Virus record (IMG/VR): IMGVR_UViG_3300023223_000669
Coordinates: 62,001-126,000 of that record
Strand: one strand, 5' to 3'
Source: a virus
DNA: 64,000 nucleotides
Every line of letters starts with the position of its first letter. Within the stretch, counting starts at the first letter, position 1. The notes beneath the pieces are model-generated. The model was not told the origin of the DNA, searched no databases, and saw nothing but the letters and a program-made list of their open reading frames with translations. Positions 7,917-46,430 of the stretch are shown piece by piece. Made by a program: the position numbers and the translations under genes.

Positions 7917-7926
7917 TTAGTGTATT
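7917..7926 (+). promoter_or_regulatory. Late-type promoter-like box TTAGTGTATT
   Basis: An exact copy of the recurrent 10-bp box lies in the 59-nt gap between terL and the HNH gene, 44 nt before its start codon. No consistent -35 element accompanies the copies. If it works as a promoter it would drive the HNH and portal genes. Confidence 0.45.
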
Positions 7927-7970
7927 AGATACCTGGAGCAATCAAGCCGCAATATAATCGCCCTGACGTT

Positions 7971-8372
7971 ATGAAAACCTGCATTCTCTGTCATACTAAG
8001 TTTAAACGATACGTCATGGTCGATGGCAAAAAGCTGGATTTAAGTAGTAGACGAAGATGTTTGATATGTAGTCCGTTTGATGGCAAGACAGGACCACGTA
8101 AATTGACTCCTGACGAAAAGAAGCTATCTATACGCAAATCAGATTTGAAGCGTCTTTATGGCATTACACTTGAAGATTTTGAGAACATGCAGGCTCGACA
8201 GAATAACAAGTGTGCCATCTGCGGAGTGGATCCTCCTGAGAGCAATAAGCGTCGTCTATCCATTGATCATTGCCATATCACTGGCGATATTCGTGGCCTT
8301 CTCTGTACTCGCTGTAATACCATGTTGGGATGGTTTGAGACTAATCGTGAAGCCGTAGAGAGTTATCTATAA
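7971..8372 (+). CDS. Endonuclease-VII-type HNH endonuclease
   Basis: The 133-residue protein resembles the recombination endonuclease VII family. It has an N-terminal zinc knuckle (C-x2-C ... C-x2-C near residues 3-33), a basic helical linker, then the core: C-A-I-C-G, the LSIDHCH catalytic motif and the RGLLCTRCN motif with the second Cys pair. It shares the core with the gene at 47237. Its stop codon overlaps the portal start (TAATG), so portal translation may depend on it. A selfish homing role is likely, and Holliday-junction resolution of DNA for packaging is the alternative given the family and its place between terL and portal. Confidence 0.8.
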   Translation: MKTCILCHTKFKRYVMVDGKKLDLSSRRRCLICSPFDGKTGPRKLTPDEKKLSIRKSDLKRLYGITLEDFENMQARQNNKCAICGVDPPESNKRRLSIDHCHITGDIRGLLCTRCNTMLGWFETNREAVESYL

Positions 8373-10807
8373 TGACACGAAATAAAGCGAACGCTGATAG
8401 ACAAGTACGTGAGGACGCTATTTCACGTACTGCCGGTGCTGATTCCATGCTGACAGCCACGTCTCGTGCGAATGATACAGCCCGCAGTAAAGCTTATTTT
8501 TACGGCAACCTTGGCGATAGTGTCGAACGCCGAATGGGTGGCGGCGATCATCTATTAGGCGGAGGCAACGATAGTTTCGATGGGGCGTTTGGTCCTAATT
8601 CCTCATGGCAAGCCCAGGGATTTGGTAACTATTTTGGTACCGGCCTAATTAACGGCTATGGCCGGATGAACTCTGGCATTCACAGCGGCGGCGGTGGTGG
8701 CTTTACCTACCTTCGCCGTTTTTCTTCTAACTCTGTTTTCAATCACCAGCTTATCTCTCAGTGTATGCTGGCGTATCTAGGTTATGGTGTAGTTAGAAAC
8801 ATCATCGACCTGTACTCGGACTTTGCCACCGAGGGCATCTCAATCGATCACCCCGACGAGAGTGTTCGGAATTTCTACAAGACGTGGGCCACAAAGGTTG
8901 ATCTGCGTGATCGTGTCCATAGTCTGTTCCTTAATTTGTTCGTGTCGGGCAATGTGTTTGTTCACCGTCGCTGGGCAACCCTCTCTACTCAAGAGAAGAG
9001 AGCGATGAAGTCCGCTCAGGGGGCTGAGAATATCAATGACATGCTCATCATTCGTGGCAACTCAAAAGACACAACTATCGAGGGCCGCGAGGGTGGTTTT
9101 ATTGATTGGTTTTTAGAGCAGAAAGAAATCCATCTAAGCGACGATGATAAGAATGGTAAGGCAATAGGCAAAGCCCCTGAGTCTCCTCAGGATGAGCAGA
9201 TGCCCAAGAACCCCAAGAAGAGAATCCCCTGGGGGTACACTTTCTTGAATCCGCTCCAGATGGAACTACGTGGCCGTAAGCTGCGTGGCGACCATTACTG
9301 GATTATGGCCATCGACAAGCGAGACACGCTTGATTTTGCTCGTGGCATCGGGTTCTACAGTAGCTACAATCAAGACCTAGGTACGACAGAGATGAACTTG
9401 CCTAAAGAGTTCCTTAATCGTATCCAGCGTTACTCGGGGCCGGGTGCAGGGTATTCCGCCGAAGTTAAGTTGAGTCGCGAGGAGCTGTCTGTATTACAAG
9501 CTCCCGGTAAGTGGGATTGGTTCGATTGGGCCGTCCCGTTCTGCTACCCGGCCCTGCGTGCGTTGTCCTTCAAGGACTGCATTCGCAATATGGAGATGAA
9601 GGCATGCCAGTCTGTTATCAACTCTATTTTCCTTTTCAAGCTAGGTAACATCGAGAAAGGTATGCCAGCCGAGGACGAGCATTTTGAACGTCTTGCGGAT
9701 ATGCTGCAAATGCCGGGCCAGGCCCTCAATATCCTTTGGAACGAAGCTATTGAAGCCGATGTGATTCAGGCTGACGTTAAAGGTATCTTTGACGATGGTA
9801 AGCATCAGTCTGCCGACAAGGACATCTTGACCGCCCTTGGTATCCCCGAAGTGCTTATCGGCGGCAAGGGTGGCAATTTCTCCAATTCGTTTATTGCGGT
9901 TTCAACCGTGCTTGAGCGTTTGGAGTCGTATCGTAATAAAGTTCATGCTTGGTTGATGAATGAGTTGAAGATCATCGCTGATTCGATGGGCTTCAAAAAG
10001 CTACCGACAGTTCGTTTCGGTCGTACGAGTTTGAAGGATGAGAAATCTCACCAAGCATTCATGACTGGACTGTATGACCGTGGTATCCTCTCTGCTGATA
10101 GTCTTCTGACCGAAGGTGGTACAACCGCCGAGATTGAAGCTTCCAAAATGAAGGAAGAGAAGAAGAAGTACAAGGAGAAGGATATCTTTGAGCCGAAAGG
10201 TCCGTTTGTCAAAGATCCTAAGCCAGTACCCGGCACGCCGGGTGCTAAGCCGCCGGGTGGTGCAACCAAACCGAAGCCCAAGACGCCAAATGGTCGTCCT
10301 ACCAATACGAGTACTGGGCCCACTGGTAAGCAAAGCAACCCGCGTGGTCCCAAGGGACAGAATGTTGCATTCATTCTTGAAACGCAAGAAATTCTGTTGC
10401 GTCGTGGGCGAGCCATGCTCGATCAATTAGAAACATTCATTAGTGACCGTGTGCTGTCTTCAAAGGCTCGCGAGAATCCAAATTTGAGACATGTCAAGAA
10501 TTTGCGTGCTCAAGAACGTGAGCGACTGGAATGGTTGATCTACAACGTGTTCAGTCATATGCCACCACCGCCGGATGAGGAAGTCAAACTCAAGGATGAC
10601 TTCATTGTGAATATGCTCCGCTCTGATGCCTGTGAAGATGTCAAAGTAGATGTGTTTAGCACCTACACGGACAAGGTGGTTGAGTACAGTAAGACATATG
10701 GGAAGTCGCCCACACGCGAGATGCGTAGACAGTTTATGGTATCCGCCTGGACTCAACAGGCGATCATGCAGCATGTTGCTGAAAAACCTGATATTCTTAG
10801 TCTATGA
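8372..10807 (+). CDS. Portal protein
   Basis: The 811-residue protein lies directly after terL. The core at about residues 125-560 has the portal pattern: a VVRNIIDLYSDFATEG helix region, the LFLNLFVSGNVFVHRRW strand pair, and the wing and stem followed by IPEVLIGGKGGNFSNS. It is long for the family because of a Gly-rich N-terminal extension (about 55-110, with runs of Gly) and a Pro/Lys/Gly-rich linker at about 610-660 before a helical C-terminus of 150 residues. Twelve copies would form the capsid vertex channel that docks TerL. The start overlaps the HNH stop and the end overlaps the next HNH gene by 4 nt. Confidence 0.85.
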   Translation: MTRNKANADRQVREDAISRTAGADSMLTATSRANDTARSKAYFYGNLGDSVERRMGGGDHLLGGGNDSFDGAFGPNSSWQAQGFGNYFGTGLINGYGRMNSGIHSGGGGGFTYLRRFSSNSVFNHQLISQCMLAYLGYGVVRNIIDLYSDFATEGISIDHPDESVRNFYKTWATKVDLRDRVHSLFLNLFVSGNVFVHRRWATLSTQEKRAMKSAQGAENINDMLIIRGNSKDTTIEGREGGFIDWFLEQKEIHLSDDDKNGKAIGKAPESPQDEQMPKNPKKRIPWGYTFLNPLQMELRGRKLRGDHYWIMAIDKRDTLDFARGIGFYSSYNQDLGTTEMNLPKEFLNRIQRYSGPGAGYSAEVKLSREELSVLQAPGKWDWFDWAVPFCYPALRALSFKDCIRNMEMKACQSVINSIFLFKLGNIEKGMPAEDEHFERLADMLQMPGQALNILWNEAIEADVIQADVKGIFDDGKHQSADKDILTALGIPEVLIGGKGGNFSNSFIAVSTVLERLESYRNKVHAWLMNELKIIADSMGFKKLPTVRFGRTSLKDEKSHQAFMTGLYDRGILSADSLLTEGGTTAEIEASKMKEEKKKYKEKDIFEPKGPFVKDPKPVPGTPGAKPPGGATKPKPKTPNGRPTNTSTGPTGKQSNPRGPKGQNVAFILETQEILLRRGRAMLDQLETFISDRVLSSKARENPNLRHVKNLRAQERERLEWLIYNVFSHMPPPPDEEVKLKDDFIVNMLRSDACEDVKVDVFSTYTDKVVEYSKTYGKSPTREMRRQFMVSAWTQQAIMQHVAEKPDILSL

Positions 10808-11316
10808 ACAAACTCTGTAATGGATGTGACACCATTAAACCGGCAGATGAGTTTCGAAAAGACAGAAGAAACAAATCTGGTTTGGGTTCTCGGTGTTTAG
10901 AATGTTGTCGATCCTATGATCGCAGCGAAAAGGCAAAGGCAGCATTACGAACTTATCGTAAGACTCCTGAAGGCAAGTTAGCATCTAAGCGTTTTCGACA
11001 GTCGGATAACGGCCGTTTAGCACGTTTGCGGTGTCACTATCGTCGTAGAGATCGTCAATGCAATCTTAATACATATCTTTCAAGTGAAGATATAAAATAT
11101 ATTCGACTGCGTTTTGATAATCAATGCTTTAAATGTGGCGACAAAGATGATCTTACCATTGATCATCATCGTCCTCTGGGCCGTGGATATGGCCTGTCGG
11201 TGAATAATGCTGTTTTACTTTGTCGTTCGTGTAATAGCAGCAAAGGTATTCGCATGCCATGGGACTTCTACGCTCCTGAGGAACTAGAGTACCTAAGTAG
11301 CCTATCGTTAGTGTAA
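10804..11316 (+). CDS. HNH homing endonuclease
   Basis: The 170-residue protein has an N-terminal Cys4 zinc knuckle (C-x2-C and C-x2-C around residues 5-35), a long basic linker, then the HNH core: C-F-K-C-G, a TIDHHRPL catalytic motif and NAVLLCRSCNSSKG. The C-terminal W-D-F-Y-A-P-E-E segment matches the gene at 35061 (D-F-Y-A-Q-E-Q), and the two proteins align along most of their length, so one probably arose by transposition of the other. It sits between portal and the next head gene. A late-type box overlaps its last codons. Confidence 0.85.
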   Translation: MNKLCNGCDTIKPADEFRKDRRNKSGLGSRCLECCRSYDRSEKAKAALRTYRKTPEGKLASKRFRQSDNGRLARLRCHYRRRDRQCNLNTYLSSEDIKYIRLRFDNQCFKCGDKDDLTIDHHRPLGRGYGLSVNNAVLLCRSCNSSKGIRMPWDFYAPEELEYLSSLSLV

Positions 11317-11317
11317 T
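11308..11317 (+). promoter_or_regulatory. Late-type promoter-like box, variant TTAGTGTAAT
   Basis: This is a one-base variant of the recurrent box. It overlaps the end of the HNH gene and stands only 7 nt before the ATG at 11325. A transcript begun just downstream would be nearly leaderless for that gene, or could use the inner start at 11481. Confidence 0.35.
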
Positions 11318-11324
11318 ATGAGTT

Positions 11325-12254
11325 ATGGAGCGTACCCACGCCAAAATTGTCAAACGTGGTAACCAGTGGTGTGTTGTCTCTGAAGACGGTACTAAGAACC
11401 TGGGCTGTTCGAACACTCGTGAGGGTGCCGAAAAACGGCTCAAGCAGGTTGAGTTTTTTAAGCACAAAGGGTCAGCAGATATGGATTATAAAGACGCATT
11501 CGGCAATCTTGGTAAGGCATTGAGCCAGGGGTTCACCCCCGATCATCTCGGCGGACCTGGTAGTCAACCTCCCAAGGTAGAGGTAGAATCCGAGACGCTG
11601 AGCGTGGCAGATAGTCTAAAGGAAGGAACTATTGCCGGCTTTGTTTGTGAGCGTCTTCTAGACACCAAGGATCACTTCCCTGTCATTACGCAGACCCAGG
11701 CTCAGTCGAGCATGGCACGCGTTATGCAACTGACCGAAATCCCTGGTTGGTATGCTGGTGACCTGTCGGAACTCCGCCAGGACGTATACGCTGGTATCAC
11801 AAAGCTACACCCGGACATTGAACTCAATGTGCGGGTGTCTGCCGAACAGGCGGTTGGTCTTGGTCTTTCTGATGGCGAGACGCCTGCTGCGACTTCGAAG
11901 ACCTCTGTGAAGGACCCCGAAGATGATCGTAAGCGAGATATGGTTCCTCAAGTTGCTCGTCCGACCCTGACGAGTGCCCAAGTGGAAGCAGCTCTTAATG
12001 ATGAAGAAACACGCAAGGCGGTTGCTGGCCGTCTTATGGAATTGCTTGATAAGCAAATCGAGCATATGAAGAGTGCTAAGAAAGTTGGTCAACGACTTTT
12101 GAAGGGCGGCATGAAGGCTGAGGAGTTTGATCAGCTCAGCACATATGTTCAAGAAGATATTCTTCGCGAGCTTATGTCGCGTGGCGTTAACGCTGCCCAG
12201 GCTACTGAAGATCGTCGCCGCGAATTGCTAAACCGCATGCAGAACAATGGCTAG
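11325..12254 (+). CDS. Hypothetical head-region protein, 309 aa
   Basis: The first 45 residues form a small basic domain (KIVKRGNQWCVVS, then LGCSNTREGAEKRLKQV) of a kind seen at the start of phage head-region proteins. After a Gly/Pro linker the rest is helical and charged, ending with an Arg-rich helix. It lies between portal and protease-scaffold, so an internal core or head-associated role is possible but unproven. The start at 11325 keeps the N-terminal domain intact. An inner ATG at 11481 with an AAAGGG element upstream could give a 257-residue form. It overlaps the next gene by 8 nt. Confidence 0.55.
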   Translation: MERTHAKIVKRGNQWCVVSEDGTKNLGCSNTREGAEKRLKQVEFFKHKGSADMDYKDAFGNLGKALSQGFTPDHLGGPGSQPPKVEVESETLSVADSLKEGTIAGFVCERLLDTKDHFPVITQTQAQSSMARVMQLTEIPGWYAGDLSELRQDVYAGITKLHPDIELNVRVSAEQAVGLGLSDGETPAATSKTSVKDPEDDRKRDMVPQVARPTLTSAQVEAALNDEETRKAVAGRLMELLDKQIEHMKSAKKVGQRLLKGGMKAEEFDQLSTYVQEDILRELMSRGVNAAQATEDRRRELLNRMQNNG

Positions 12255-12435
12255 TCGTCAGTTTAGACCTGAAGCGTTTTGGCTTATTGCTCGTCAACGC
12301 CAATTTGATAGAGATGGTCAGCCGTTTGAGTTATTGATTGGCGAGATCAATCCTTTTAACCAACCTCAGAAACCAACTGATGGTGGTAAAAAGAAGAAGA
12401 AGAAAAAGAAAAAGACAACGGTACGGCCGTATTAA
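12247..12435 (+). CDS. Small basic protein with poly-lysine tail, 62 aa
   Basis: This is a 62-residue unrecognised protein. The N-terminal 35 residues are mixed helix and strand with several aromatic residues. It ends in nine consecutive lysines followed by TTVRPY. Such a tail would bind DNA or an acidic protein surface, and the location in the head module fits an internal DNA-contacting role, but this is inference. It overlaps the previous gene by 8 nt. The lysine codons make an A/G-rich tract at about 12388-12416, but no XXXYYYZ slippery heptamer with six A was found. Confidence 0.55.
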   Translation: MASRQFRPEAFWLIARQRQFDRDGQPFELLIGEINPFNQPQKPTDGGKKKKKKKKKTTVRPY

Positions 12436-12447
12436 GGGGGACTCATT

Positions 12448-12759
12448 ATGGCTACTGCATTAAATTCTGGTTTCACCAACAACATCAATACGATTCAACT
12501 TCGTGTGAATGGTGCTCATTCGCATCGTGTGACGGATCGTCCTATTGATGTGACTGGTGATGGTATCGAAGAACAAGTGACTGTCGCCCATGTTTCCGGT
12601 CATGCGGTTGGCGTTCCCAGTGCTCCGGGTGGTGTAACACGCAGTACGGTAACCATTCCTGCTGGTTCTGCACGCACCATTATTGCTCAAGTTACTGAGA
12701 CTGATGGTGGCGTTCACACGGATAATGATGTACTTGAAAACACCGAAGGAGTTAGCTAA
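12448..12759 (+). CDS. Hypothetical virion-region protein, 103 aa
   Basis: This 103-residue unrecognised protein consists mainly of beta-strand-like sequence rich in Val, Thr and Gly, with an A-H-S-H pair near residue 24 and further His at about 49 and 53. A strong ribosome-binding site (AAGGGGGACTCATT) precedes ATG 12448, a feature shared with other abundant structural genes here. The stop overlaps the start of the His-rich gene (TAATG), so the two are probably made together. A small capsid-associated or adaptor protein is plausible. Confidence 0.55.
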   Translation: MATALNSGFTNNINTIQLRVNGAHSHRVTDRPIDVTGDGIEEQVTVAHVSGHAVGVPSAPGGVTRSTVTIPAGSARTIIAQVTETDGGVHTDNDVLENTEGVS

Positions 12760-13256
12760 TGGCTCGTGAAGACTATATCGACGAATGCCTTGATCCCCGC
12801 AAGCGACCCATAGACCGCAATCGTGGCCTACAGGCCGATGGGTTTGCAGAGGCATTACAGAGGGCAGCCGGTAAACCTTATGATGAGGTTCCCGACGAGT
12901 TGGGAGAAGGCGGCGTTCGCTCCACGCCCGGCACCGATATTGCTGACCCATATGGCTCACAAATCCAGCCGAAGGGGGTTCCGGTGTGGGACCATCCCCC
13001 TTTGACTCCTAAGGAAGAAGCGGTATATTATGGTGTCCATATCCATAGCGAGTCAAATCCATTGGGTTTGCATTCGCACGTCCCCGGTGGGACATCTGGT
13101 GGAGGCCACAGCCACGGCCCCCAAAACCGCTTTGGCTCACATCATCACAAGACGGAGAAGCCGTTATACGGTATTACCCTTGATGGTGTTCACGTTCACG
13201 ACGGAAACAACTATCCCGATGGGTCACATAACCATTGCCCAGAGAATTTTGGGTAG
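12759..13256 (+). CDS. His-rich metal-binding-like protein, 165 aa
   Basis: The 165-residue protein has a charged helical N-terminal 60 residues and a C-terminal half holding three similar units, each with two G-x-H-x-H motifs separated by 5-8 residues. They lie at about residues 92-107, 115-130 and 143-159 (for example GVHIH then GLHSH). That makes six H-x-H pairs, one continued as HHH. H-x-H pairs coordinate metal ions in trimeric phage fibres and spikes, so this product probably binds several metal ions, perhaps as a trimer. It lies in the head module between a small virion-like protein and the protease-scaffold. The function is not known. Confidence 0.6.
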   Translation: MAREDYIDECLDPRKRPIDRNRGLQADGFAEALQRAAGKPYDEVPDELGEGGVRSTPGTDIADPYGSQIQPKGVPVWDHPPLTPKEEAVYYGVHIHSESNPLGLHSHVPGGTSGGGHSHGPQNRFGSHHHKTEKPLYGITLDGVHVHDGNNYPDGSHNHCPENFG

Positions 13257-13268
13257 TAGTTTTGCCGT

Positions 13269-13278
13269 TTAGTTTATT
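13269..13278 (+). promoter_or_regulatory. Late-type promoter-like box, variant TTAGTTTATT
   Basis: This one-base variant of the recurrent box lies in the 27-nt gap before the protease-scaffold gene, 5 nt ahead of its ATG. The same variant occurs at 35008. Confidence 0.35.
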
Positions 13279-13283
13279 AGTCG

Positions 13284-15176
13284 ATGGGCATGAAATATCG
13301 TACAACAGTAATTGCTAGAGCAGACGTGGTAAAGCCTAACTCTGATGAGTTTAAGGCTATGGCCGCATCTCTCAAGGATCGCTATGGTTTCGATCTGAAA
13401 CCACAGATGGACTTGATGTATGTACGTTCGTGTCTAGTTTCTGCTGGAGCCGGTGTTGGTGTAAATGATAATGACGACATCTTCACTCGTGATGAAGCCT
13501 GGGCGGCTCGCCATACGCCCGTCTTGAAGCCATTTAACTGGCAGCATGAAGACAAAGATATCATTGGCGTAATGTATACGGTGCAGGCTCGTGCTGTTGA
13601 TAATGGTGACATTCTTGACATCAATGATGACACCACGCCTGACCGAGATTTTGACCTGTATGTAGAAGCAGCCATTTTTAGCTTAGTACACGAAGATCGT
13701 GCCGCCGAGATCGCAACTAGATCAAAGGGCGGTAATCTTTATGTGTCTATGGAAGCATGGTTTGATGATTACAACTACGGGCTATATGATAGCGAGACTG
13801 GTACTTTAGACCGTACCGTAGCTCGCAATGAGAAAACCAGTTTCCTTGACAAGCATTTGCGTGCGAACAGTGGGACTGGTATTTATCGTGATCCTGAATC
13901 CGATCAGGATATGCGGATCGGTCGCGTCCTAAGGTCCATTACCTTCGGAGGCTGTGGTTTTGTTGATCATCCCGCCAACAAGCGTTCTGTTATTGAGGCT
14001 GTTGAGCCTATGACTTCGTTTGGGGAGCGAGATACCGAATTGCAAATTGAAAGACTACTTGAAAGAGTAAAGGTTTTGGAATCTCAAGGAGAAGTTATCG
14101 AGGAGGTAACTCTAATGAATACTCAAGCTAGTAACCCGGGGACAAAGCCCGAGGAACTTACTGCGGCGGTCGATACTGCTCTCGATAAGAGAGACAAGGT
14201 TGCTGCGGAAAGACAGGCAAAGGCTTCTCTTGAAGCTCGTGCCTCTGAAGCTGAAGAGAAGGCTGGAAAGCTAGAAACTCAGGTTCAAGAACTGACAGAA
14301 GCTAAGGAAGCTAAGGAAGCCGAAGTACAGGCACTCCAAACTCAGATGGAAGAATACGGTCAAGCCGTTGATAGTCTGGTTCAGGAGCATACTGCTGCTG
14401 GTGCAACTAGCGATACTCCTGCTGAAATCGCTGCTATCGATGCAACGACTGATGGCGATGGTGCCTGGAAGGCCAAGCTTGCTTGGCTTGAAAAGTCAAC
14501 TGCTAAGCTAGCCACTCGTGCCGCTCGTGCTGATGAGCTGGAAACCCAGCTTGCTGAAGCCGAAGCAGTAGTTCGTGAGCAGGAAATTCGTAGTTTGCTC
14601 GGTGAGACCTTCTCCGAAGAAACTGTTGAAGTCATGATTACTCGTGCCGCTGATCTTGATGAGGAAGCTTATCAAGCATGGCGTGACGAAAAAGAACTCA
14701 TGGTTATCGAAATGGTTGCTGCTGCGAAGCATGCTAACGATAAGAAGCTTCCGCCGTTTATGCAGAAGAAGAAGAACGGCGAGGACAAGAATGGTAAGGA
14801 AGCTAAGGCGGAGAACCCGTTTAAAGCTCTCCTAGAGCAACGTCGTGTGGAAAGTGGATCGGCTTCGCCCGATACGCCGCCGATGTTGTCGGACAGAATT
14901 AATCCTCCTGGAGACGATGGCGTCAAGAGTGGCGTTACTCCCGCTTCTCCAGGTTTAAGTACACCGCGTCACAAGATTGCTGGCTCTGCCGGGGACGACC
15001 TTGCTGGACAGCTTGACAATGTTCAAGCTGATGGCGACGTTTCACTTGCCGGATCTCAAGCTGGTGATGATGGTGAAGGAGTTAATGCGTTTCGCGTTCT
15101 CGCGAGCGTCGTAGCTCCCGTAGAAGAAGAAGATGAAGGCTCGGACTCACGTCCGGACTTCGATCCCACTAAGTAA
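13284..15176 (+). CDS. Prohead protease fused to capsid scaffold
   Basis: The 630-residue protein has two parts. Residues 1 to about 255 form a globular alpha/beta domain with the layout of prohead maturation proteases (an N-terminal strand, the FNWQHEDKDIIG segment, a GGNLYVSMEAW strand and a closing GGCGFVDHPANKRSV region). I cannot fix the catalytic residues with confidence. From about residue 258 to the end it is coiled-coil, Glu/Ala/Lys-rich, then disordered, as expected of a scaffold. The gene sits immediately before the decoration-like and MCP genes. An internal start at 14115 with its own ribosome-binding site would give the scaffold alone. ATG 13290 is an alternative start. Confidence 0.7.
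   Translation: MGMKYRTTVIARADVVKPNSDEFKAMAASLKDRYGFDLKPQMDLMYVRSCLVSAGAGVGVNDNDDIFTRDEAWAARHTPVLKPFNWQHEDKDIIGVMYTVQARAVDNGDILDINDDTTPDRDFDLYVEAAIFSLVHEDRAAEIATRSKGGNLYVSMEAWFDDYNYGLYDSETGTLDRTVARNEKTSFLDKHLRANSGTGIYRDPESDQDMRIGRVLRSITFGGCGFVDHPANKRSVIEAVEPMTSFGERDTELQIERLLERVKVLESQGEVIEEVTLMNTQASNPGTKPEELTAAVDTALDKRDKVAAERQAKASLEARASEAEEKAGKLETQVQELTEAKEAKEAEVQALQTQMEEYGQAVDSLVQEHTAAGATSDTPAEIAAIDATTDGDGAWKAKLAWLEKSTAKLATRAARADELETQLAEAEAVVREQEIRSLLGETFSEETVEVMITRAADLDEEAYQAWRDEKELMVIEMVAAAKHANDKKLPPFMQKKKNGEDKNGKEAKAENPFKALLEQRRVESGSASPDTPPMLSDRINPPGDDGVKSGVTPASPGLSTPRHKIAGSAGDDLAGQLDNVQADGDVSLAGSQAGDDGEGVNAFRVLASVVAPVEEEDEGSDSRPDFDPTK
14115..15176 (+). CDS. Nested in-frame capsid scaffold, 353 aa
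   Basis: Inside the protease-scaffold frame, ATG 14115 (residue 278, same reading frame) is preceded by a near-perfect AGGAGGT at 14101-14107, 7 nt away. This is one of the best ribosome-binding sites in the window. It would produce the coiled-coil scaffold without the protease, the arrangement known for lambda C/Nu3. The product has a long Glu/Ala/Lys/Gln heptad region, a LPPFMQKKK basic patch and a disordered acidic end. Such a protein would be made in excess, assemble the procapsid with MCP, and be removed by the protease. Confidence 0.65.
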   Translation: MNTQASNPGTKPEELTAAVDTALDKRDKVAAERQAKASLEARASEAEEKAGKLETQVQELTEAKEAKEAEVQALQTQMEEYGQAVDSLVQEHTAAGATSDTPAEIAAIDATTDGDGAWKAKLAWLEKSTAKLATRAARADELETQLAEAEAVVREQEIRSLLGETFSEETVEVMITRAADLDEEAYQAWRDEKELMVIEMVAAAKHANDKKLPPFMQKKKNGEDKNGKEAKAENPFKALLEQRRVESGSASPDTPPMLSDRINPPGDDGVKSGVTPASPGLSTPRHKIAGSAGDDLAGQLDNVQADGDVSLAGSQAGDDGEGVNAFRVLASVVAPVEEEDEGSDSRPDFDPTK

Positions 15177-15188
15177 AGGAGGCTAGAA

Positions 15189-15656
15189 ATGGCTTTATTG
15201 CAATCTCGACAGACGCAGCATACTAATATTGACTGCTCTGTTTCTGGTGTTGCTGAACGTGGTGGTATTCTATCTTTCGTTCCCGGTGTTGCTGGTCTCT
15301 GTGAATATGCGGATGCTACCGCTGTTTCGGGGGCATTATCCAACCCTGCTGGTCTATTGCTTGATGATGTAGAAGCTCTTAACTACTACAACCATCCTGA
15401 GTACCGTCAGCGTAACGTTGTTCCGCAAGGAAGCGTGGTTGGTATTGCTACCGAAGGTGAGTTCCTCACTGACATGGTTGAGACAGCAACGGCCGATGGA
15501 GCGTCTGTAGGTACCTATGTTCCTGGCGACGACTTGTTTTTGGCGGATGATGGCAACGTAAGTCGCCAGCAGATCGCTGCCTTGCGTCCTTCCGTTGGTA
15601 AAGCCCTTGCGGCCATTACTGCTGACGGCTTCCTCAAGATCCGCGTGGAACTATAA
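15189..15656 (+). CDS. Capsid decoration-like protein, 155 aa (copy A)
   Basis: The 155-residue protein lies between scaffold and MCP with a very strong ribosome-binding site (AAAGGAGGCTAGAA), so it should be abundant. Its sequence is co-linear with the protein at 18597: RQT at 7-9, NID at 13-15, ERGG at 23-26, LSFV at 28-31, EYA, a G-E-F-L-T-D motif, P-G-D and a C-terminal FLKIRVEL strand. Small beta-rich proteins encoded next to MCP are often capsid decoration or cementing proteins, which is the inferred role. No paralogue of known function is recognised. Confidence 0.6.
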   Translation: MALLQSRQTQHTNIDCSVSGVAERGGILSFVPGVAGLCEYADATAVSGALSNPAGLLLDDVEALNYYNHPEYRQRNVVPQGSVVGIATEGEFLTDMVETATADGASVGTYVPGDDLFLADDGNVSRQQIAALRPSVGKALAAITADGFLKIRVEL

Positions 15657-15667
15657 GGAGACCTCAA

Positions 15668-16693
15668 ATGAATTATCAACGTTATCCGCAAGAAGCAATT
15701 GACGCCCTGCGTGCAACTGCTGCACCGGACTCTGATGTCCGTGCTCGTGCTCAAAAGGCTTTTGCCGCTGAGCTAAATTCGCCCCTTCGTCAAGGGGTTT
15801 TTGATCGTGACAACCTAGGTGGCATTTACGAGAAGCAAGTCCTTGCTCCTGGTGCTCAAGCCAACTACCCGCTCGACTTCGTAAAGCCGGGTGAAGAAGA
15901 TGAATTCATCGCCTTCACTTTGCCGAAGCAGGGTCGTGTGCCGGAACGTCACGTCGAAGGCGACGAGTTGTGGGTGCCGACATTCCAGATCGGCAACGCA
16001 ATCGACTGGTCGCTTAAGTATGCTAAGGAAGCTCGTTTCGACGTTATTATGCGTGCGATTCGTGTTTACGAGGCTGGTTTTGTTCGTAAGATTAACTCTG
16101 ATGGTTGGCGTACCCTGCTTGGTGCTGCTGATGGTCGTGGCCTCACGGTTTCGGCTACCGGTGCTGCTCCGTTCACGGGTTCCACGCTCGCCCCGACTCC
16201 TGCTGCTGGTCAGTTCACCAAAGAACTTATTAGCCGTATGAAGACCGCGATGACTCGTGGTGCGGGCGGTAATGGTAACGCTGGGCGTCTGACTGATGTT
16301 TACCTTAGCCTTGAGGCGATGGAAGACATTCGTGCGTGGGATGTAGACGAAATTGACGAGTTCACTCGTCGTGAAATCTTCGTTTCGCGTGAGTATGGTC
16401 TTGCCCAAATTTACGGCGTTGTTCTTCATGAGATGACCGAGCTTGGCGAAGGTCAGGAGTACGAGGAATTCCTCGAAGTTACTCTTGCCCGTGCCCACAC
16501 TGGTTCGCTCTTGGAGTACTGCATCGGTCTTGACCTGTCCACAATGGACAGCATGGTCATGCCGATCCGTGAAGAACTCCAGACTTTCGAAGACCCGGCT
16601 CTCTACAGAGAGCAACGTGCGGGCATCTTCGGCTGGATGGAGCACGGTTTCGCCGTACTTGATCCGCGTCGTATCCTGATTGGCGAATTCTAA
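15668..16693 (+). CDS. Major capsid protein (HK97-type)
   Basis: The 341-residue protein starts with a strong ribosome-binding site (ATAAGGAGACCTCAA), follows the scaffold and decoration genes and is closed by a strong terminator, the classical setting of MCP. The sequence fits an HK97 fold: an N-terminal arm, an E-loop region rich in charged residues near 85-110, a long spine helix around ARFDVIMRAIRVYEAGFVRK, and a P-domain/A-domain with DVYLSLEAMEDIRAW and a YGVVLHEMTELG strand. The maturation cleavage site is not evident. GC-rich preferred codons are used more strictly than in neighbours, as expected for the most abundant product. Confidence 0.85.
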   Translation: MNYQRYPQEAIDALRATAAPDSDVRARAQKAFAAELNSPLRQGVFDRDNLGGIYEKQVLAPGAQANYPLDFVKPGEEDEFIAFTLPKQGRVPERHVEGDELWVPTFQIGNAIDWSLKYAKEARFDVIMRAIRVYEAGFVRKINSDGWRTLLGAADGRGLTVSATGAAPFTGSTLAPTPAAGQFTKELISRMKTAMTRGAGGNGNAGRLTDVYLSLEAMEDIRAWDVDEIDEFTRREIFVSREYGLAQIYGVVLHEMTELGEGQEYEEFLEVTLARAHTGSLLEYCIGLDLSTMDSMVMPIREELQTFEDPALYREQRAGIFGWMEHGFAVLDPRRILIGEF

Positions 16694-16717
16694 GCCGAAC
16701 AGCGACAGCTAGATCCT

Positions 16718-16753
16718 AAGGGGGCGGTAGGGTGTGAATCCTACTGCCCCCTT
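16718..16753 (+). terminator. Rho-independent terminator after MCP
   Basis: A 12-bp stem (GGGGGCGGTAGG with CCTACTGCCCCC, one G-T pair) at 16720-16731 and 16740-16751 has an 8-nt loop. It is extended by flanking A-T pairs and ends in TTTGCTT. A late-type box follows 4 nt later. Confidence 0.85.
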
Positions 16754-16756
16754 TGC

Positions 16757-16766
16757 TTAGTGTATT
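16757..16766 (+). promoter_or_regulatory. Late-type promoter-like box TTAGTGTATT
   Basis: This exact copy lies just after the MCP terminator and 44 nt before the connector gene at 16811, the same leader length as at 7917. A terminator immediately followed by this box is strong context for a promoter. Confidence 0.5.
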
Positions 16767-16810
16767 CTTTAGTAGGTCTCACGCACAGGCACTTTAAACA
16801 GTAAATCATC

Positions 16811-17683
16811 ATGGCTGGCGAAACAAAAGTATTAACAGTGGGTCAGGCAGCTTCGGCACTTGATATCTTTTTGTCTGCTAACGGAACGGCCGTGAGTGGA
16901 CAAAATGTTGGCTTCGAGTTGTTTGATGCAGCGAACGTATCTGCCGCCAGTGGTGTTGCATTGAATCCAGCCTTGGGAACATACCAAGCTGCGGGATCTA
17001 TTCCCGCCGGATTCCAGATTGGCACATGGCGTGTGGAGTGGAATATCATTACAGCGGCCTTGGAGCTTGTGACAGCTACCGAGCCCTTCTGTGTGCAAGC
17101 CATTCAAGTTACTATTGGCTTTGTGCCAACAACCGATAAGACTAGTACGATCTATGAGGCCGTACGTTTAGATATTGGCGACCCTGACGGACAGGTATTC
17201 AATGATGATTTCCTCAAAAGGAATCTCACGAAAGCCGTGCGTAGACTTAACCACCGTCTCGGATTGTCACCCACCGCACGACCTAAAGGTATTCCTGGTG
17301 GTTTCGGTGGGCCTCGTTTGAAAGTTTCCCCCATTGTTGCCGATGTAGAAGCTGGCACAATCACGCCTTGTAATGATGAAATACAAGATTTGATGATTTT
17401 ACAGATGGAATATATCATTATTTCAAGTGAACTCACTGCACTTAAACGTTTGGCTGCTACCTCTAGCTCTGGTCCTTATGCTGGTTTAGTTGGTTCTGCT
17501 AGTCAGGATGGTATCTCGGTAACCAACGCGGACGGCATAAAAGTTTCGATTTCTCCCGGTCGTTTAAATGTCAGGGCTGACTTGCATAAATTTGATGTCA
17601 AGCGTCGTGGCGAAGAACTAGAAGCAGCCATAAGAGCATTTTTGAATAGAATGACTGCTAATTTTGGCAAGCTAATCTATTAA
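16811..17683 (+). CDS. Head-tail connector-like protein with N-terminal beta domain
   Basis: The protein is 290 residues. Residues 1-95 are a beta-sandwich-like domain rich in Val, Ala and Gly. From about 105 a helical domain begins with IYEAVRLDIGDPDGQVFNDD and KRNLTKAVRRLNHRLG, the pattern of the small helical adaptor (HK97 gp6-like) that binds below the portal, including the helix that starts with the N-D-D-F/L turn. The first gene after MCP is commonly this adaptor. The extra beta domain is unusual and could project from the neck. The stop overlaps the HNH start (TAATG). Confidence 0.6.
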   Translation: MAGETKVLTVGQAASALDIFLSANGTAVSGQNVGFELFDAANVSAASGVALNPALGTYQAAGSIPAGFQIGTWRVEWNIITAALELVTATEPFCVQAIQVTIGFVPTTDKTSTIYEAVRLDIGDPDGQVFNDDFLKRNLTKAVRRLNHRLGLSPTARPKGIPGGFGGPRLKVSPIVADVEAGTITPCNDEIQDLMILQMEYIIISSELTALKRLAATSSSGPYAGLVGSASQDGISVTNADGIKVSISPGRLNVRADLHKFDVKRRGEELEAAIRAFLNRMTANFGKLIY

Positions 17684-18288
17684 TGTTTAATAAAACTTGT
17701 AAACATTGTGACGGGGATTTTGTTGCACAGAACGTGCGATTATTGTATTGTTCTGTCAAGTGCAAAAACAAACTCAAGTCTGAGAAGATCATGGCTAAAC
17801 GTTGTAGTAATAAAGATGCCTACAATGCTTATCAAAGACAATGGCGTTCAAAAAATTCAAATCATTGTAGCCAATGGGAGAAAGATAGATATGCCACTAA
17901 CGAGCGTGTACGTGAACAAAAAATAAAAGCTGCTAAAAAATGGCACAGGAACAATCTTGAACGCAGCCGTGAAAACAACAGGCGGTATTATTTGGCCAAC
18001 TACGAAAGATTCGCTGCTGCCAATCTGGCCCGCCATTCACGTCAACCCATGGACAAAGAACTTGTCTTGCAGATTTTTGAAGAAGACAACTATACATGTG
18101 TTTATTGTAGTGTTCGTGGAGGCAAGCTGACCATTGATCACAAGATCCCCGTATCGTGCGGCGGTACTAATGATCGTAACAATCTGTGTACGGCATGTCA
18201 CCGATGCAACTGTTCCAAGGGTGCAAAGACTGTTCAAGAATTTGAACAATATATGTTAGAGGTATTGTATAGTGCTTGTGTTTTGTAA
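17683..18288 (+). CDS. HNH homing endonuclease
   Basis: The 201-residue protein has an N-terminal zinc finger (C-x2-C and C-x3-C around residues 6-26), a long, very basic Arg/Asn/Lys linker of about 90 residues, then a classical HNH core: YTCVYC, a LTIDHKIPVSCGG catalytic motif with the first H, N-D-R-N-N-L and CHRCNCSKG. It sits at the connector junction with the upstream stop overlapping its start, and its own end overlaps the next gene by 17 nt. A selfish homing element is the likely nature. Confidence 0.85.
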   Translation: MFNKTCKHCDGDFVAQNVRLLYCSVKCKNKLKSEKIMAKRCSNKDAYNAYQRQWRSKNSNHCSQWEKDRYATNERVREQKIKAAKKWHRNNLERSRENNRRYYLANYERFAAANLARHSRQPMDKELVLQIFEEDNYTCVYCSVRGGKLTIDHKIPVSCGGTNDRNNLCTACHRCNCSKGAKTVQEFEQYMLEVLYSACVL

Positions 18289-19711: not shown

Positions 19712-19713
19712 CC

Positions 19714-20739: not shown

Positions 20740-20750
20740 ACGCCTTATAT

Positions 20751-20760
20751 TTAGTGTATT
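20751..20760 (+). promoter_or_regulatory. Late-type promoter-like box TTAGTGTATT
   Basis: This exact copy abuts the ATG of the HNH gene at 20761 with no gap. A transcript starting a few bases downstream would miss that ATG and serve the major tail protein gene at 21217 instead. Confidence 0.45.
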
Positions 20761-21210: not shown

Positions 21211-21216
21211 CTGACC

Positions 21217-22632: not shown

Positions 22633-22648
22633 TCTAAGATATCCTTTG

Positions 22649-22687
22649 GGCGGCGGAGTGCCGGGGGGTCACTCCGCCGCCGTCTTT
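22649..22687 (+). terminator. Rho-independent terminator after the tube gene
   Basis: A perfect 12-bp GC-rich stem (GGCGGCGGAGTG with CACTCCGCCGCC) at 22649-22660 and 22670-22681 has a 9-nt loop and is followed by GTCTTTTCT. It is the strongest hairpin in the window. Confidence 0.9.
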
Positions 22688-22695
22688 TCTACCCC

Positions 22696-24987: not shown

Positions 24988-24989
24988 GT

Positions 24990-31813: not shown

Positions 31814-31816
31814 GCC

Positions 31817-34049: not shown

Positions 34050-34708
34050 GTGCTGGAGACTTCCCCGTAATTCGTGTCTTTGAATGGGACACGGCTGAAG
34101 TGGCAAGCCCCGTGGGGACACGGAACTTGCCAGGGGGGAGCTTTGCATTCAAACAGATCGTGTCTTCCGGTTGTGCTACCGTAGATCCCAGTAATCCGGG
34201 CACAACCTCTGGTACTCTCGTGTTTCAAGATACCAAGTTTGATCTTAGCAATCTACCCCTGCCGTCACATCTAGCATCGAAGGTCACGGCCATTACGTTT
34301 AACCTCGCCGCCAGTGGTACGGCCATTTCAGACCTTAAACTTTTTGTGGTAGATGATAGTGCTTTTCAAGGAAGTGCCGACGAAGGATTAGACAGAGCTT
34401 TTATACAGGCTTCTCCTAGTGGCGGTAATTGGCTACCACTCGTAGAGATGCCTTCGGGGTCCGTGAGCCGTCTTCCATTGATAGTTCCTACAGTCCCAAA
34501 CGTACTCCGTCAGGATGGCGGCAATGCCCTTGTAGGCGAGGATGACCAGAATTCATCTGAATTTGTGTACTTAAATATTGTGATCCCGCTCGGTACACCC
34601 CTGGGCACTTTTGGCGTCTGTGGCTCTGGTATTCTGAGGCTAGCATTAGTTTTTAACTACTGGTCCAATGACTTCATTCTGGAGTTTGGCGATCCTACAG
34701 TGGGTTAG
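34046..34708 (+). CDS. Tail-tip protein, 220 aa, paralogue of 33319 product
   Basis: The 220-residue protein is beta-rich, with Gly, Ser and Thr turns and a DLKLFVVDDSAF strand in the middle. The final 45 residues (VYLNIVIPLGTPLGTFG, then G-S-G-I-L-R-L-A-L-V-F-N-Y) match the end of the 33319 product. The family is unknown. The start overlaps the preceding 58-codon gene. The stop codon TAG lies inside a late-type box, so the unit downstream may have its own promoter. Confidence 0.55.
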   Translation: MSAGDFPVIRVFEWDTAEVASPVGTRNLPGGSFAFKQIVSSGCATVDPSNPGTTSGTLVFQDTKFDLSNLPLPSHLASKVTAITFNLAASGTAISDLKLFVVDDSAFQGSADEGLDRAFIQASPSGGNWLPLVEMPSGSVSRLPLIVPTVPNVLRQDGGNALVGEDDQNSSEFVYLNIVIPLGTPLGTFGVCGSGILRLALVFNYWSNDFILEFGDPTVG

Positions 34709-34714
34709 TGTATT
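34705..34714 (+). promoter_or_regulatory. Late-type promoter-like box TTAGTGTATT
   Basis: This exact copy includes the stop codon of the preceding gene and lies 53 nt before ATG 34768. A small hairpin AGGTC/GACCT (34723-34737) and the palindrome CGAACGTTCG (34740-34749) stand between box and gene. Confidence 0.45.
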
Positions 34715-34767
34715 ATACAGTGAGGTCATATCGACCTATCGAACGTTCGTTTTAATGGAGGTAAGCT

Positions 34768-34953: not shown

Positions 34954-34979
34954 TCTGACGGATTTTTGCTAAAAACAGG

Positions 34980-35005
34980 GCCGCTGTTCGTTCGCGAACA
35001 GCGGC
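34980..35005 (+). terminator. Hairpin terminator with TTCG loop
   Basis: A perfect 11-bp stem (GCCGCTGTTCG with CGAACAGCGGC) has a 4-nt TTCG loop. The following TCTTAGTTTATT is only moderately T-rich, and the box variant begins there, so the hairpin may mark both the end of one unit and the start of the next. Confidence 0.65.
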
Positions 35006-35007
35006 TC

Positions 35008-35017
35008 TTAGTTTATT
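35008..35017 (+). promoter_or_regulatory. Late-type promoter-like box, variant TTAGTTTATT
   Basis: The same variant occurs at 13269. It lies 3 nt after the hairpin at 34980-35005 and 43 nt before the HNH start at 35061, nearly the same leader length as at 7917 and 16757. Confidence 0.4.
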
Positions 35018-35060
35018 ATCATATGGACGTAGCTCGAAGCTTAGTTCACGGAGAAAGGAA

Positions 35061-36060: not shown

Positions 36061-39000
36061 ATGGTCGATCTTGTCACTGACAATCACTTGATTGGTTTCT
36101 GGCCAATGGATGAACCCAGCGGGACTCCAACGTTCAAGAACTATTCTCCTTCGTATGCCGGTAAGCCCAGTGGCATTTCGTTTGATTTACATCAACAACA
36201 AGCTACTGTTGGTGCCGTTGGTGCTATCAGTGAATGGCTTGGCAATACTGAAGTGACGGAATCTGGTGCGTTCACATATCGTGGCGTACAATTACATGGC
36301 AACTATCAATCTGTACAGACTGTTGCTAGTAGACATGTTAAATATCTGACTATTGGTCATGGTGGTTTTGGTCCTAGACACAAAACATTGACAGCACCTA
36401 CTGCCCAGAGTGGTTTCACATTTGGTCTTTGGGTGTTACCGCAGTCTGATGGCTATGATGGATTTGTTGATGGTGCAGATAATAGTCAGAAACAACACGG
36501 CCTAGGCAATGCTTTGTTTTTCCGTGGTGATGATGATCATGGTATCATGATTGGTGTGTCTGGGCAACTTATCGGAGGTTCCCAGTTTAGTGCTTTAGAA
36601 TTTGGTGGCCCACATCGTCTAACAGGATATGTATATGTTACTGGTGGTGATACTGCTAATCCGAGTACAGATGCTCGTGCCGAGATTCTAGAGACGCCTC
36701 TTGAGTCTGGCCAATTTGTGCATTTGACATGTTCATATCGCTATATTGATGGCACAGTCAATGAAGTTGTCCTTTATAAAAACGGAAGAGTGACAGCTAG
36801 TGGCACGACGGACGCTGGTTTACATGCTGCTGCTACACCTGCAGCGAATAACTTTGATGATGTGAAGTGGGCCATTGGTGCATCTGTTGACGATGGAGAC
36901 GGTAATCCAGCAGGAGTATATGACTTGACAACAGGATGGAACCATCTTGTTTCTGGTGCGTATTATTTTGCTCGTGTTTTGCACGAGGGCGAAGTTCAAG
37001 AAATGCATGAGAGAGGTGGTTTACAGAGAACCACTGGTAATATTGGTCCTGCGACAGCGGCGGTTAGCATTGATGATACTAGGCTACTGGCTTACTATTC
37101 ATTTGCTGCTGTTGGATATGCTGATGCATCTCGTCATCACCGTCCCTTGATTGCTGGCGTTGATGAGGGTGACCGTAGTACTCTTGCCGCATTTGCTGGC
37201 CCCTTTGGTCGTGGTGGTCTTTACAAAACGTCTCCAGCCGATACTTTGATAGCTTCTAGTGGTCTTACGTTTGCTTTTGCTGAATCTACTGCTGGATTCA
37301 CTATTGGTATTCGTTACGCACAGCAACTCAGTCCTACGTTTCCTAATAACGTTTTATTCAGTTTTGGTACTTGTGGCACGACATTCAATCCTACGGTTGT
37401 TAATTCCACTATGGGGCTCAGAGTATCCCGCGACACGACTCTCGACAGGGTATTTGCTCAAGTATTTCCAATTGGAGATGAAAATACTGTAGTGACTCTT
37501 ACCAGTAGTGATTTTGATCAAGCTGACCGGGTTATGGCCCATATGGCTTTTGCGTATTCTGTTGCCGATGATGGTTTTGCCCTGTATATTGATGGTGAAT
37601 TACATGCTAGTGGTACAGCACAAAACCCATTGATGCCTCACATGTTAAACTTGGCTGCTAGTGGTTTCCCTCTAGCATTTATTGGCGGCATTGCAGCGGA
37701 CAATCCCTTTGTTCTAGCTTCGGTTTCTGATGAAACCACGATTTGTGATATCTCAATTTTCGATTCTCCGTTAGGACAGGATGAAATTAGAGCCATCGCT
37801 CAGAGTGGTATCGATATTGTGCCATTGATGCGTACTCCGCACGATCCTCGTCTAGCTGGTTACTGGCCATGCACAGATTTTGATGGTGATGATGTTTTAA
37901 TTGAGGACCGTGCTAAGGTATGGCAGAACGAAGCGTCAGCACCGCTACGTTACTCTTTGAGTGATGAAGTCTGGGATGAGCTTGAGCTTTTAGACAATGA
38001 GGGTCCATGGATTCGTAGAGATGAATTTGTAGCCAAGACTCTTCCTCCAGAGCTTGCGAGCTTCGGTAACCTGGGTATTACTAGTGGTGCTTTCACGGTT
38101 AACACACAGGGCTCTAGACCGCTTGGCGAGAACGTCGATTCTAAATCTTCGGTTGCGAACTTCCCAACTAGATGGCGTGCCAATCCAGAAGATAACGATT
38201 TAGTAGCTACTCATCCATTTGGTGAATACATCATTATGTTTGATGTGACGCCTAGTGGCACCGTGCCGCCCGCACTAGAGTTTGCCACTAATATGGATTT
38301 TAATTCCGTTGTTTTTACGCTGACCGATAACAACGACGAGTTCATGGCATACCTGACCTCTGTAAATGCCGCCCAAGGTTCTGGTATTAGTCTTTGTTTC
38401 ATGGGGCGTGAAGTTAGTGCTGGTCAATCTCATGTTTCTGGTGAGGTACCCTATGGAGTTCCTACTCATGTCATGTATCACATGAAGTGGGACGATCCAA
38501 ATAATACTTCTTCGACTGCCCTGATTAGTTATTTAACTGCTCGTCTATATATTGCTGGTGTACCTATCATGCATCGTCGTATGTTAGGTCCAGATTCTAG
38601 ATTATGGCCAGATCAACAGGGTGGTGCTAGCCTTGACGAATGGATGTTAAACATTGGTGGTGAAGCTATTGATGAAGCCGAGACAGGACATGCTACTATC
38701 GCGGAAGTTGGTCTTGGTGGTAATTATGTACGCAACTTCACAATTATGCGTGGCACTTTCTCGCCTGATGATATCAGAAACTTTGCTGTATCTGGTATTG
38801 AAGATAAAGCACCTTTGACGGGGTTCAATGATGGTGCTTTACCCACAACCCAAGTGACTACTGCTGATGCTGCTCTTGAGGGCTATTGGCGTTTCAGTGG
38901 TCAGCCATCTGGAGAAACCGATCTCGGTCCTGCTGGTAATGATCTAGTTTCCCTGGCGAAACAAGCGATTGAAGACGGCGTTTTTACTCCTGGTGCGAAC

Positions 39001-40929: not shown

Positions 40930-40932
40930 GAT

Positions 40933-44313: not shown

Positions 44314-44315
44314 TC

Positions 44316-46424
44316 ATGGTTTTTGAATCTGGCGATCCTCCGTATGATTATGATGGTCCTCGGGGACCATTGCGGGGTAATGCACGTCCATCTTTGGAGC
44401 GGGGTTTACAGGGTCCTAGCGGCATTAATTTGGAACAAGGTCAATTCGTTATTACGGCAGAAAGACGTAAGTTCAATGTAAACGCCGTTGGTGGATCCCA
44501 TATTTTGCCAACGTTCATGGTATATGTACATGAAGATATCCCTCCAACAACTCAGTACGAACCCAAAGGAGATGGCTCTACTTTAGCTAATATTGCTAGT
44601 GTGTGGATCATCAATCATATTCTTGAAAGTCGTATAGCATTAGATGATTTATTTGATGACTACTCTCTCGATGGTGAGTTTTCAGCACTTGACATGAAAC
44701 GAGACTGGTTGCACCAACTTGATCCAATGGGGCCGCCGCCATCTGGTTATCGTAGACCTGATCCTAACCAGTTGGGTGTTGCTGATGGTTTGTTGGACAC
44801 CACGAACGTAAGTGTTTTGGGCGGTTCTGGTATCTTGTTTGGATTGGACTTTGGCGAAGTCATGTTCAATCCATATCCATATTTCTCTAACAACAATTTT
44901 GGTGATCTACATAATTTTGGTAATTTTAGGTCTGTACTATTATCTCCCGTTTGGCCAGCGTTCCAAAGAACAAACGGATCACTGATCACTTTGAATGGTC
45001 GTGAACCTGATGATCTGCTAAATGCTGATGAGTATGATGTTACGGAGATTGCTAATGGCAGGGTTCGTTTAGACGGTTATTGTTTTTTGTCACAATCACA
45101 ATATTTGATTGGCGAAGGCAATGGCTACGCTTTCAACGGTGAGGTAGGCTTCACTTTTGTTTCAGCCTCTACTCGGCCAACCATTTTCCCAGACGCATCG
45201 AATCTTGCAACGACGCGGGTGATTGTAGATCCAACACCGCAGCCATGCGGCATCTATAAAATTGTCGTACGTAATCTGTTAGGAGAAGACGCCGTTCCAC
45301 AGTCAACTATTCCATCTGGTCTTGTTAGTCAGTGGCCTGTATCGGGTCAAACACATCCAGAGAGAGATGGTCACATTTTTGATATCAATATTCCATATAA
45401 CCTTCATGGTAAATGGTATAACAACACTGAGTTTGAAATGGGATATCAAGTATATGATGATGCCATGTGGATTACTGATGTGGGCTCTGCTGGAGAGGAC
45501 CCATCTGGCCTAGTTGTTACATCTCCATTCACCGGTCATGCTCAATGGTTGCGTTATGCCGAGCAAACCCCCAGTACTGGCTCTGGAGCACTTGGAGGTT
45601 CTAGTATGAGTGCTGAACCATGGGGAGATCATGTTGGACTCGATAGAGTTGGTAGTATTATTCACCGTGTTCAAACAGCAGTAGCCAACGGTAGTACATC
45701 TGCTGCTGGTACATTACTCATTCAACAGTATAATGATGCTCTAGATTATTTGGGACAAATTGAAACGGATGAAAACCCAGGACAGGGTGCCAGTCCATTC
45801 GCTAGAGATTTGGCTTTTGTTCCAGCCTCTAGTTCAGAATGGTGGGCCGTTATCGGCACGACTCCAGGTAATTTCATTTGGCGTTTTGATGGAACATTTA
45901 CTTTTATTGCGGCTGCTGGTATTGTCAATATTGGTACGGGAGAGCTTGCCACCGGGGGTGCGTCACCGCGAGTTGCTGATTTGGGTGGTACTGTTAGATT
46001 TGGTAATGTTCATGTGAGTCCTGGAAATGCCACATTTTCTCATAGAGGTAGTGGTATTTGGGATGCCGACATCAGTAACCTGAGTACAAGTGGTGTTGTT
46101 ACTGAAAATTGTCGCTTAATTGATCTTGCCCCCGTCCTAGAAGACGGCGGCGACGAACAAGCTTTCTGTACCGTTTATGACATGCAAGACGTTAGCGGTT
46201 CCGCACATCTTATTGATGGATTCTACTTTTTGGCTTCTTGGCAAGAATCTACATCGCCGTTCCCGAATCGCCTGTTTTTGATTCGTGCGGTACCACGAGA
46301 TGATTCGAGTGCCCCAGCCTTTTGTGTTGGTTTCTGGGACATCTTAGGCATCTATGATTTAGGCACCATCCCAAGCTCGGCCACAAGGTTGGATTTTGCT
46401 ATGATACTGAAGAACATTGATTAG
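44316..46424 (+). CDS. Tail-tip protein, 702 aa
   Basis: This 702-residue unrecognised protein has a Gly/Pro-rich N-terminal 40 residues and a strand-rich body with Asn, Asp and Gly turns typical of phage tip and fibre proteins. No catalytic triad, LamG opening or chaperone tail was recognised, and no transmembrane helix is visible. It ends the adhesin block. Its stop codon lies inside a late-type box, so a new unit begins immediately after it. Confidence 0.55.
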   Translation: MVFESGDPPYDYDGPRGPLRGNARPSLERGLQGPSGINLEQGQFVITAERRKFNVNAVGGSHILPTFMVYVHEDIPPTTQYEPKGDGSTLANIASVWIINHILESRIALDDLFDDYSLDGEFSALDMKRDWLHQLDPMGPPPSGYRRPDPNQLGVADGLLDTTNVSVLGGSGILFGLDFGEVMFNPYPYFSNNNFGDLHNFGNFRSVLLSPVWPAFQRTNGSLITLNGREPDDLLNADEYDVTEIANGRVRLDGYCFLSQSQYLIGEGNGYAFNGEVGFTFVSASTRPTIFPDASNLATTRVIVDPTPQPCGIYKIVVRNLLGEDAVPQSTIPSGLVSQWPVSGQTHPERDGHIFDINIPYNLHGKWYNNTEFEMGYQVYDDAMWITDVGSAGEDPSGLVVTSPFTGHAQWLRYAEQTPSTGSGALGGSSMSAEPWGDHVGLDRVGSIIHRVQTAVANGSTSAAGTLLIQQYNDALDYLGQIETDENPGQGASPFARDLAFVPASSSEWWAVIGTTPGNFIWRFDGTFTFIAAAGIVNIGTGELATGGASPRVADLGGTVRFGNVHVSPGNATFSHRGSGIWDADISNLSTSGVVTENCRLIDLAPVLEDGGDEQAFCTVYDMQDVSGSAHLIDGFYFLASWQESTSPFPNRLFLIRAVPRDDSSAPAFCVGFWDILGIYDLGTIPSSATRLDFAMILKNID

Positions 46425-46430
46425 TGTATT
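46421..46430 (+). promoter_or_regulatory. Late-type promoter-like box TTAGTGTATT
   Basis: This exact copy overlaps the stop codon of the preceding gene and lies 88 nt before ATG 46519. The 94-nt gap otherwise holds no gene. Confidence 0.45.

Follow-up and report, generated by a model that had tools for sequence, protein, structure and literature searches.

The window analysed here is a stretch of 64,000 nucleotides that corresponds to bases 62,001–126,000 of a virus record of 183,100 bp. Its + strand carries a recurrent 10-bp box, and the five exact copies (TTAGTGTATT) and three one-base variants listed in an earlier note on this DNA are all present on that strand (Table 1). Among the genes that lie behind boxes in the record are those of the portal and head-protein operons, a gene at record 160,771 that is head-decoration-like, and several HNH/endonuclease VII genes. 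The description of the boxes as lying before structural genes is right for some of them, but several precede HNH/endonuclease VII genes; for about seven boxes the next gene is of the HNH, HNH-like or endonuclease VII kind. The terminase operon also contains a GroES-like Cpn10 chaperonin gene (window 3084–3377). In the + strand block between 62 and 164 kb, real non-coding gaps longer than 45 nt nearly all hold a box; for this census, gaps that are ORFs missed by a simple gene caller were recognised by eye. The exception is the gap at window 22633–22752, which has no box and contains a strong hairpin followed by GGTGCTAGGTACAATAC, a sigma70-like −10.

Table 1. Boxes, hairpins and genes of sigma-like proteins (window positions, except where the record is named)
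Feature	Sequence	Position	Strand	Context
sigC, sigma-like, Cys-rich (zinc-finger-like) insert		775–1368	+	orthologs in relatives
box 1	TTAGTGTATT	7917..7926	+	exact; between terminase and endonuclease VII/portal operon
box 2	TTAGTGTAAT	11308..11317	+	conserved site; before 309-aa gene
box 3	TTAGTTTATT	13269..13278	+	variant; before 630-aa gene and major head protein operon
hairpin, terminator-like		16718..16753	+	directly 5' of box 4; −30.8 kcal/mol, z −6.4
box 4	TTAGTGTATT	16757..16766	+	before 290-aa gene, behind head-protein terminator; 0–1 change in relatives
box 5	TTAGTGTATT	20751..20760	+	exact, in gap; matched in G001, G003 by spacing
box 6	TTAGTGTATT	34705..34714	+	overlaps upstream gene's stop codon; precedes 61-aa ORF
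hairpin, terminator-like		34977..35007	+	ahead of box 7; −26.4 kcal/mol, z −5.6
box 7	TTAGTTTATT	35008..35017	+	before HNH endonuclease gene 35061–35609
box 8	TTAGTGTATT	46421..46430	+	last box ahead of replication region; matched in G001, G003 by spacing
sigA, FliA-like sigma factor		58724–59446	+	replication region; Sigma70_r2, PHROG sigma factor
sigB		record 171,967–172,512	−	resembles sigma-H/ECF factors; regions 2 and 4

TTAGTGTATT occurs 11 times on the + strand of the whole record and never in reverse, and its reversed string, taken as a control, is absent in both orientations. With 11 copies against 0.25 expected, it shares the first two ranks of over-representation among the record's 10-mers with TAGTGTATTA, the same word shifted by one base and of similar score; the 9-mer that ranks highest is TAGTGTATT (17 observed, 1.09 expected, both expectations being derived from a second-order Markov model). 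Each exact copy precedes a start codon on its own strand by 0–88 nt, and positions of this class make up 2.8% of the total (p about 8e-18 for 11 of 11, a few starts having been corrected by hand). Within the window there are 10 sites at one mismatch or less compared with 4.4 expected from shuffles, so that copies are commoner than in shuffled sequence. Two window sites at 17740 (+) and 43616 (−) match with at most one mismatch, yet they lie within genes and are read as chance matches.

The whole record was scanned with a matrix of 65 orthologous sites, 64 from relatives and one being the record's own sigB box. It returns 15 sites, 14 on the + strand and one on the − strand, which stand clear of the rest, the next-best score being much lower: the 11 exact copies, the variants at window 11308, 13269 and 35008, and a site at record 172,893 (−). 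The reversed-matrix control gives two matches above 15 and six above 13, so that the score alone is no proof at any single site. No strong match falls in the replication region (record 108,431–156,691), which agrees with the earlier remark that the replication operon holds no copy. The word GTAGTGTATT, at record 22,001 and 32,018, has a like layout before cysteine-rich genes, and window 24421–24430, which lies in the gene at 23976–24527, reads ATAGTGTACT and is followed by an ATG at 7 nt; it is either a weak box or chance. Megablast against known phages gave no match, and none of the matches listed by a literature text search with the box word looks related to phage promoters by its title.

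About 17 relatives were gathered by terminase searches (56–80% identity), and in at least 14 of them boxes stand at equivalent places while the flanking DNA has diverged. A Hydrogenophaga bin and a Nitrospirales bin from metagenomes contain relatives, though such binning can be misleading. Four places are shared in the late regions of the relatives, one after terminase, which is occupied in every relative checked there, and three before the 309-aa, 630-aa and 290-aa genes. The place of box 6 is also occupied in relatives, the hairpin ahead of box 4 is present in most of them, and the spacing of exact copies matches at 20751, 34705, 35008 and 46421 in G001 and G003; at the place of box 7, G005 and G006 have an exact box by spacing as well. 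Since orthologous sites were recognised at one mismatch or less, the apparent conservation is inflated. Exact copies in nine relatives number 38 forward and 2 reverse (control string, 4 and 0). The variants are fixed by site: of 14 relatives, 13 have TTAGTTTATT at site 3, and most have TTAGAGTATT at site 2. The family consensus over the 65 orthologous sites is TTAGtgTAtT, of which TTAG, TA and the final T are nearly fixed. The boxes directly ahead of HNH and endonuclease genes might suggest that box and gene travel together as mobile cassettes, but this is scarcely credible, as relatives hold boxes at equivalent places before other genes and the idea is contradicted for sites 1 to 4.

The sequence around the box is otherwise plain. 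Upstream, no conserved element is found from −60 to −1 in 41 exact sites or from −30 to −1 in the 65 orthologous sites, and at the distance of a host sigma70 −35 hexamer (15–19 bp upstream) neither set has information above background, bearing out the earlier statement that no fixed −35 partner is visible. A host −10 TATAAT with its conserved last T is not matched, the box ending in TATT and being followed by two unconserved positions. In both sets purines peak 8–10 nt downstream of the box; this peak, which coincides with Shine-Dalgarno sequences at some sites, likely marks the transcription start. The ATG behind box 2 starts 7 nt after the box, as it does in L044, L045, L115 and L117, and at site 3 the ATG lies 9–13 nt behind the box in most genomes. 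Because these start codons are at or near the purine peak, the mRNAs from sites 2 and 3 would be leaderless or nearly so if the peak is the start. At box 5 an ATG directly adjoins the box, the next in-frame ATG being 9 nt after it. The cluster of 43–44 nt leaders reported earlier is correct in its figures at three sites, but leaders at the same sites differ in relatives; since the lengths are not conserved, the cluster is a coincidence and was dropped as a meaningful feature.

A single short conserved element of this kind could also be a DNA–protein site, bound by an activator or by a packaging or replication factor, near otherwise host-type promoters that are hidden from view. The fixed orientation of the box and its roughly fixed distance to the downstream purine peak speak against this, as does the lack of a second conserved element anywhere from −60 to +60 in the 41 exact sites. 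Moreover, some start codons directly adjoin the box and leave no space for a separate downstream promoter. Such a site is therefore highly improbable.

The strand specificity of the box, and the position of many copies at stop codons or just ahead of ribosome-binding sites, would also suit an RNA element that acts in the processing or translation of late transcripts made by read-through. The hairpins that had been noted before 16757 and 35008 are real, however, and boxes that come after terminator-like hairpins speak against this reading, as do start codons just 7 nt after the box. The left arm of the record bears on the same question. It is mostly − strand, and the isolated + strand genes there own a box each, although their flanking genes are on the − strand and no upstream + transcript is expected. 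One of these genes (record 5,410–6,192) and the head-decoration-like gene at 160,771 encode proteins of 52% identity, and both genes are boxed, which is difficult to account for if the box is not a promoter. Orphan + strand genes with a box of their own favour a promoter over an RNA signal, and the RNA element is very unlikely.

The box is thus very probably a late promoter of one −10-like element, at which the host core RNA polymerase would act with a sigma factor of the phage. The earlier note had proposed a single-box promoter of the late type that lacks a −35 partner, and this explains the counts, the conservation and the anatomy far better than any rival reading. From the sequence we infer promoter activity, late timing, the start site and the sigma assignment. 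In the proposed mechanism, the box would drive the late genes of a phage group that is tailed, unclassified and has genomes of about 150–185 kb. Host core RNA polymerase carrying the phage sigma would bind the one box with no −35 contact, the DNA behind the box would melt, and transcription would begin on a purine about 7–10 nt downstream. Where the start codon coincides with this point, as it would at a few sites, the late mRNA may be leaderless. Boxes after terminators or over stop codons would split the long + strand late block into units, and separate boxes would serve HNH/endonuclease VII genes and orphan + strand late genes in other places. The − strand box would drive the sigB operon, so that activation of the box system would also yield more sigB.

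The phage record encodes three sigma-like proteins, sigA, sigB and sigC (Table 1), and neither they nor the boxes of the sigB operon and of the orphan + strand genes figure in the earlier note. sigA aligns along its length with FliA in a PDB profile match; a direct contig scan with sigA alone gave no confirmed relatives. sigB is convincing, by its predicted regions 2 and 4, as a sigma factor. Inspection of the sequence in 13 genomes showed a box just upstream of a small gene and sigB in every one, and G013 has no box within one mismatch upstream of sigB. In relatives, a conserved protein of about 120 aa with no assigned function lies between the − strand box and sigB (record 172,484–172,870, −), and it could be a sigma partner. 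Three parts are predicted in sigC: a sigma region 2, an insert rich in cysteine (NNPPCVRC...C...C) and a C-terminal domain made of helices. Given this last domain, loss of region 4 does not account for the lacking −35 contact. Among the PDB and fold matches listed for sigC nearly all are sigma factors, each of them weak and none with E <0.01, and the Pfam sigma match is below the cut-off in most genomes; its region 2.4–3.0 is near-invariant among relatives. Almost all relatives with records that extend over the loci of sigB and sigC have both genes. In L134, a far sigC match with 63% GC, no box is present in the sequence piece examined. A bacterial-type RNA polymerase beta subunit (RpoB, PF00562) was not found in the phage and was found in 14 of 14 control genomes, which makes the host core enzyme the likely partner. 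PF00940, the family of the single-subunit RNA polymerases that read promoters of the T7/N4 type, gave no match in a search run without a positive control.

Which of the three reads the box can be judged from their recognition helices. Mean pairwise identity of region 2.4 between genomes is 0.78 for sigC, 0.58 for sigA and 0.47 for sigB, the G010 sigA row being left out as a wrong ORF. In the T4-like phage Aeh1 an altered late box accompanies an altered gp55 (PMC1524935), and here the near-invariant region 2.4 of sigC parallels the near-invariant box, which favours sigC. Since sigC as a whole also varies least among the three proteins, its conserved helix is weak evidence, and the chance that it reads the box is put at about even. 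A reader other than sigC, with sigB (autoregulated) or sigA acting on the same promoter, is only a little less likely than that. The boxed sigB operon in 13 genomes and the convincing sigma regions of sigB point one way, but its region 2.4 is strongly variable while the box is nearly invariant, so that sigB by itself is a rather doubtful candidate. sigA, a FliA-like sigma within the replication block, was not detected in G012 (a record of 164.5 kb) although the boxes of G012 are intact, and it is an unlikely reader; some other factor is less likely still. The fuller proposal, in which sigC represents a new sigma family with a zinc-finger-like insert that directs one-box promoters and some leaderless mRNAs, and in which late activation feeds forward into sigB, is tentative and would more probably fail than hold.

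The closest known system is that of phiEco32, whose sigma factor gp36 uses the middle/late promoter tAATGTAtA without a −35 element and starts transcription 6–8 bp downstream (PMC8948821, PMC4331800). Both systems have one conserved element of 9–10 bp and no −35, and both would join a phage sigma with the host core enzyme. Between TAGTGTATT and tAATGTAtA, seven of nine letters agree (TA-g/a-TGTAT-t/a) and two differ. The corresponding start here would lie at the purine peak 8–10 nt downstream, with the site 2 ATG at 7 nt. The leading T of the box and its site-specific variants are new, and this phage has three sigma-like proteins. Profile comparison with gp36 gave probabilities of 0.7% for sigA, 0.2% for sigC and 27% for sigB; only the C-terminal helix-turn-helix of sigB matches, weakly, and none of this is convincing homology. 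The term 'unknown class' used earlier was thus too strong, as the one-element architecture and most letters resemble the gp36 promoter. With the architecture and most letters shared and the proteins not detectably related, the box system appears to be a new version of a known type of switch.

The T4 late promoter, TATAAATA, depends on gp55, gp33 and the clamp gp45 (PMC1524935). The likeness to it that had been suggested holds for the architecture, a single-element promoter before virion genes with a phage sigma factor, but not for the sequence, TTAGtgTAtT differing from TATAAATA; nor was a bacterial-type clamp found in the phage by a search that covered the bacterial beta clamp family. The system would work like the phiEco32 and T4 late systems, a likeness of working rather than of demonstrated membership. 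The late promoters of phage 7-11 gp47 (GTAAtg-(16)-aCTA) are bipartite with a −35-like part (PMC8948821). They are likewise sigma-dependent and use the host core enzyme, whereas the box here lacks a −35-like part. Promoters of the phiKZ/AR9 type are read by a multisubunit RNA polymerase of the phage, whereas no RpoB domain was found here with PF00562. In sigma cascades of the SPO1 type (gp28, gp33/gp34), middle and late promoters have two elements. SPO1 is similar in having several phage transcription factors per genome and differs from the one-element promoter here. For a group of large phages that is uncultured, the boxes yield a regulatory map open to testing, together with an orthologous promoter set with fixed, site-specific variants. 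They also offer a natural test of sigma-driven initiation from one element, for which there are few phage examples today (phiEco32, T4).

Several minor features accompany the boxes. The leader behind box 1 (window 7927–7965) contains a ATTGCAATCTAAT-like element that recurs in relatives and is a possible candidate for a packaging site or regulatory element. Behind box 6 (window 34715–34767) a small hairpin (fold z only −1.45) and a CGAACGTTCG-like element are similar in relatives. The left arm carries 16 tRNA genes (record 8,453–21,031 and 38,088–38,164), and the window none. Small − strand genes at record 35–37 kb have TTGACT-(16)-TATAAT host-type promoters instead of the box. At record 35,600–37,200 (−) they form a tandem array, several of them behind a repeated GCTTGAAAAGGACTTGACTTA...TATAAT sigma70-like promoter, and GCTTGAAAA is strongly over-represented.
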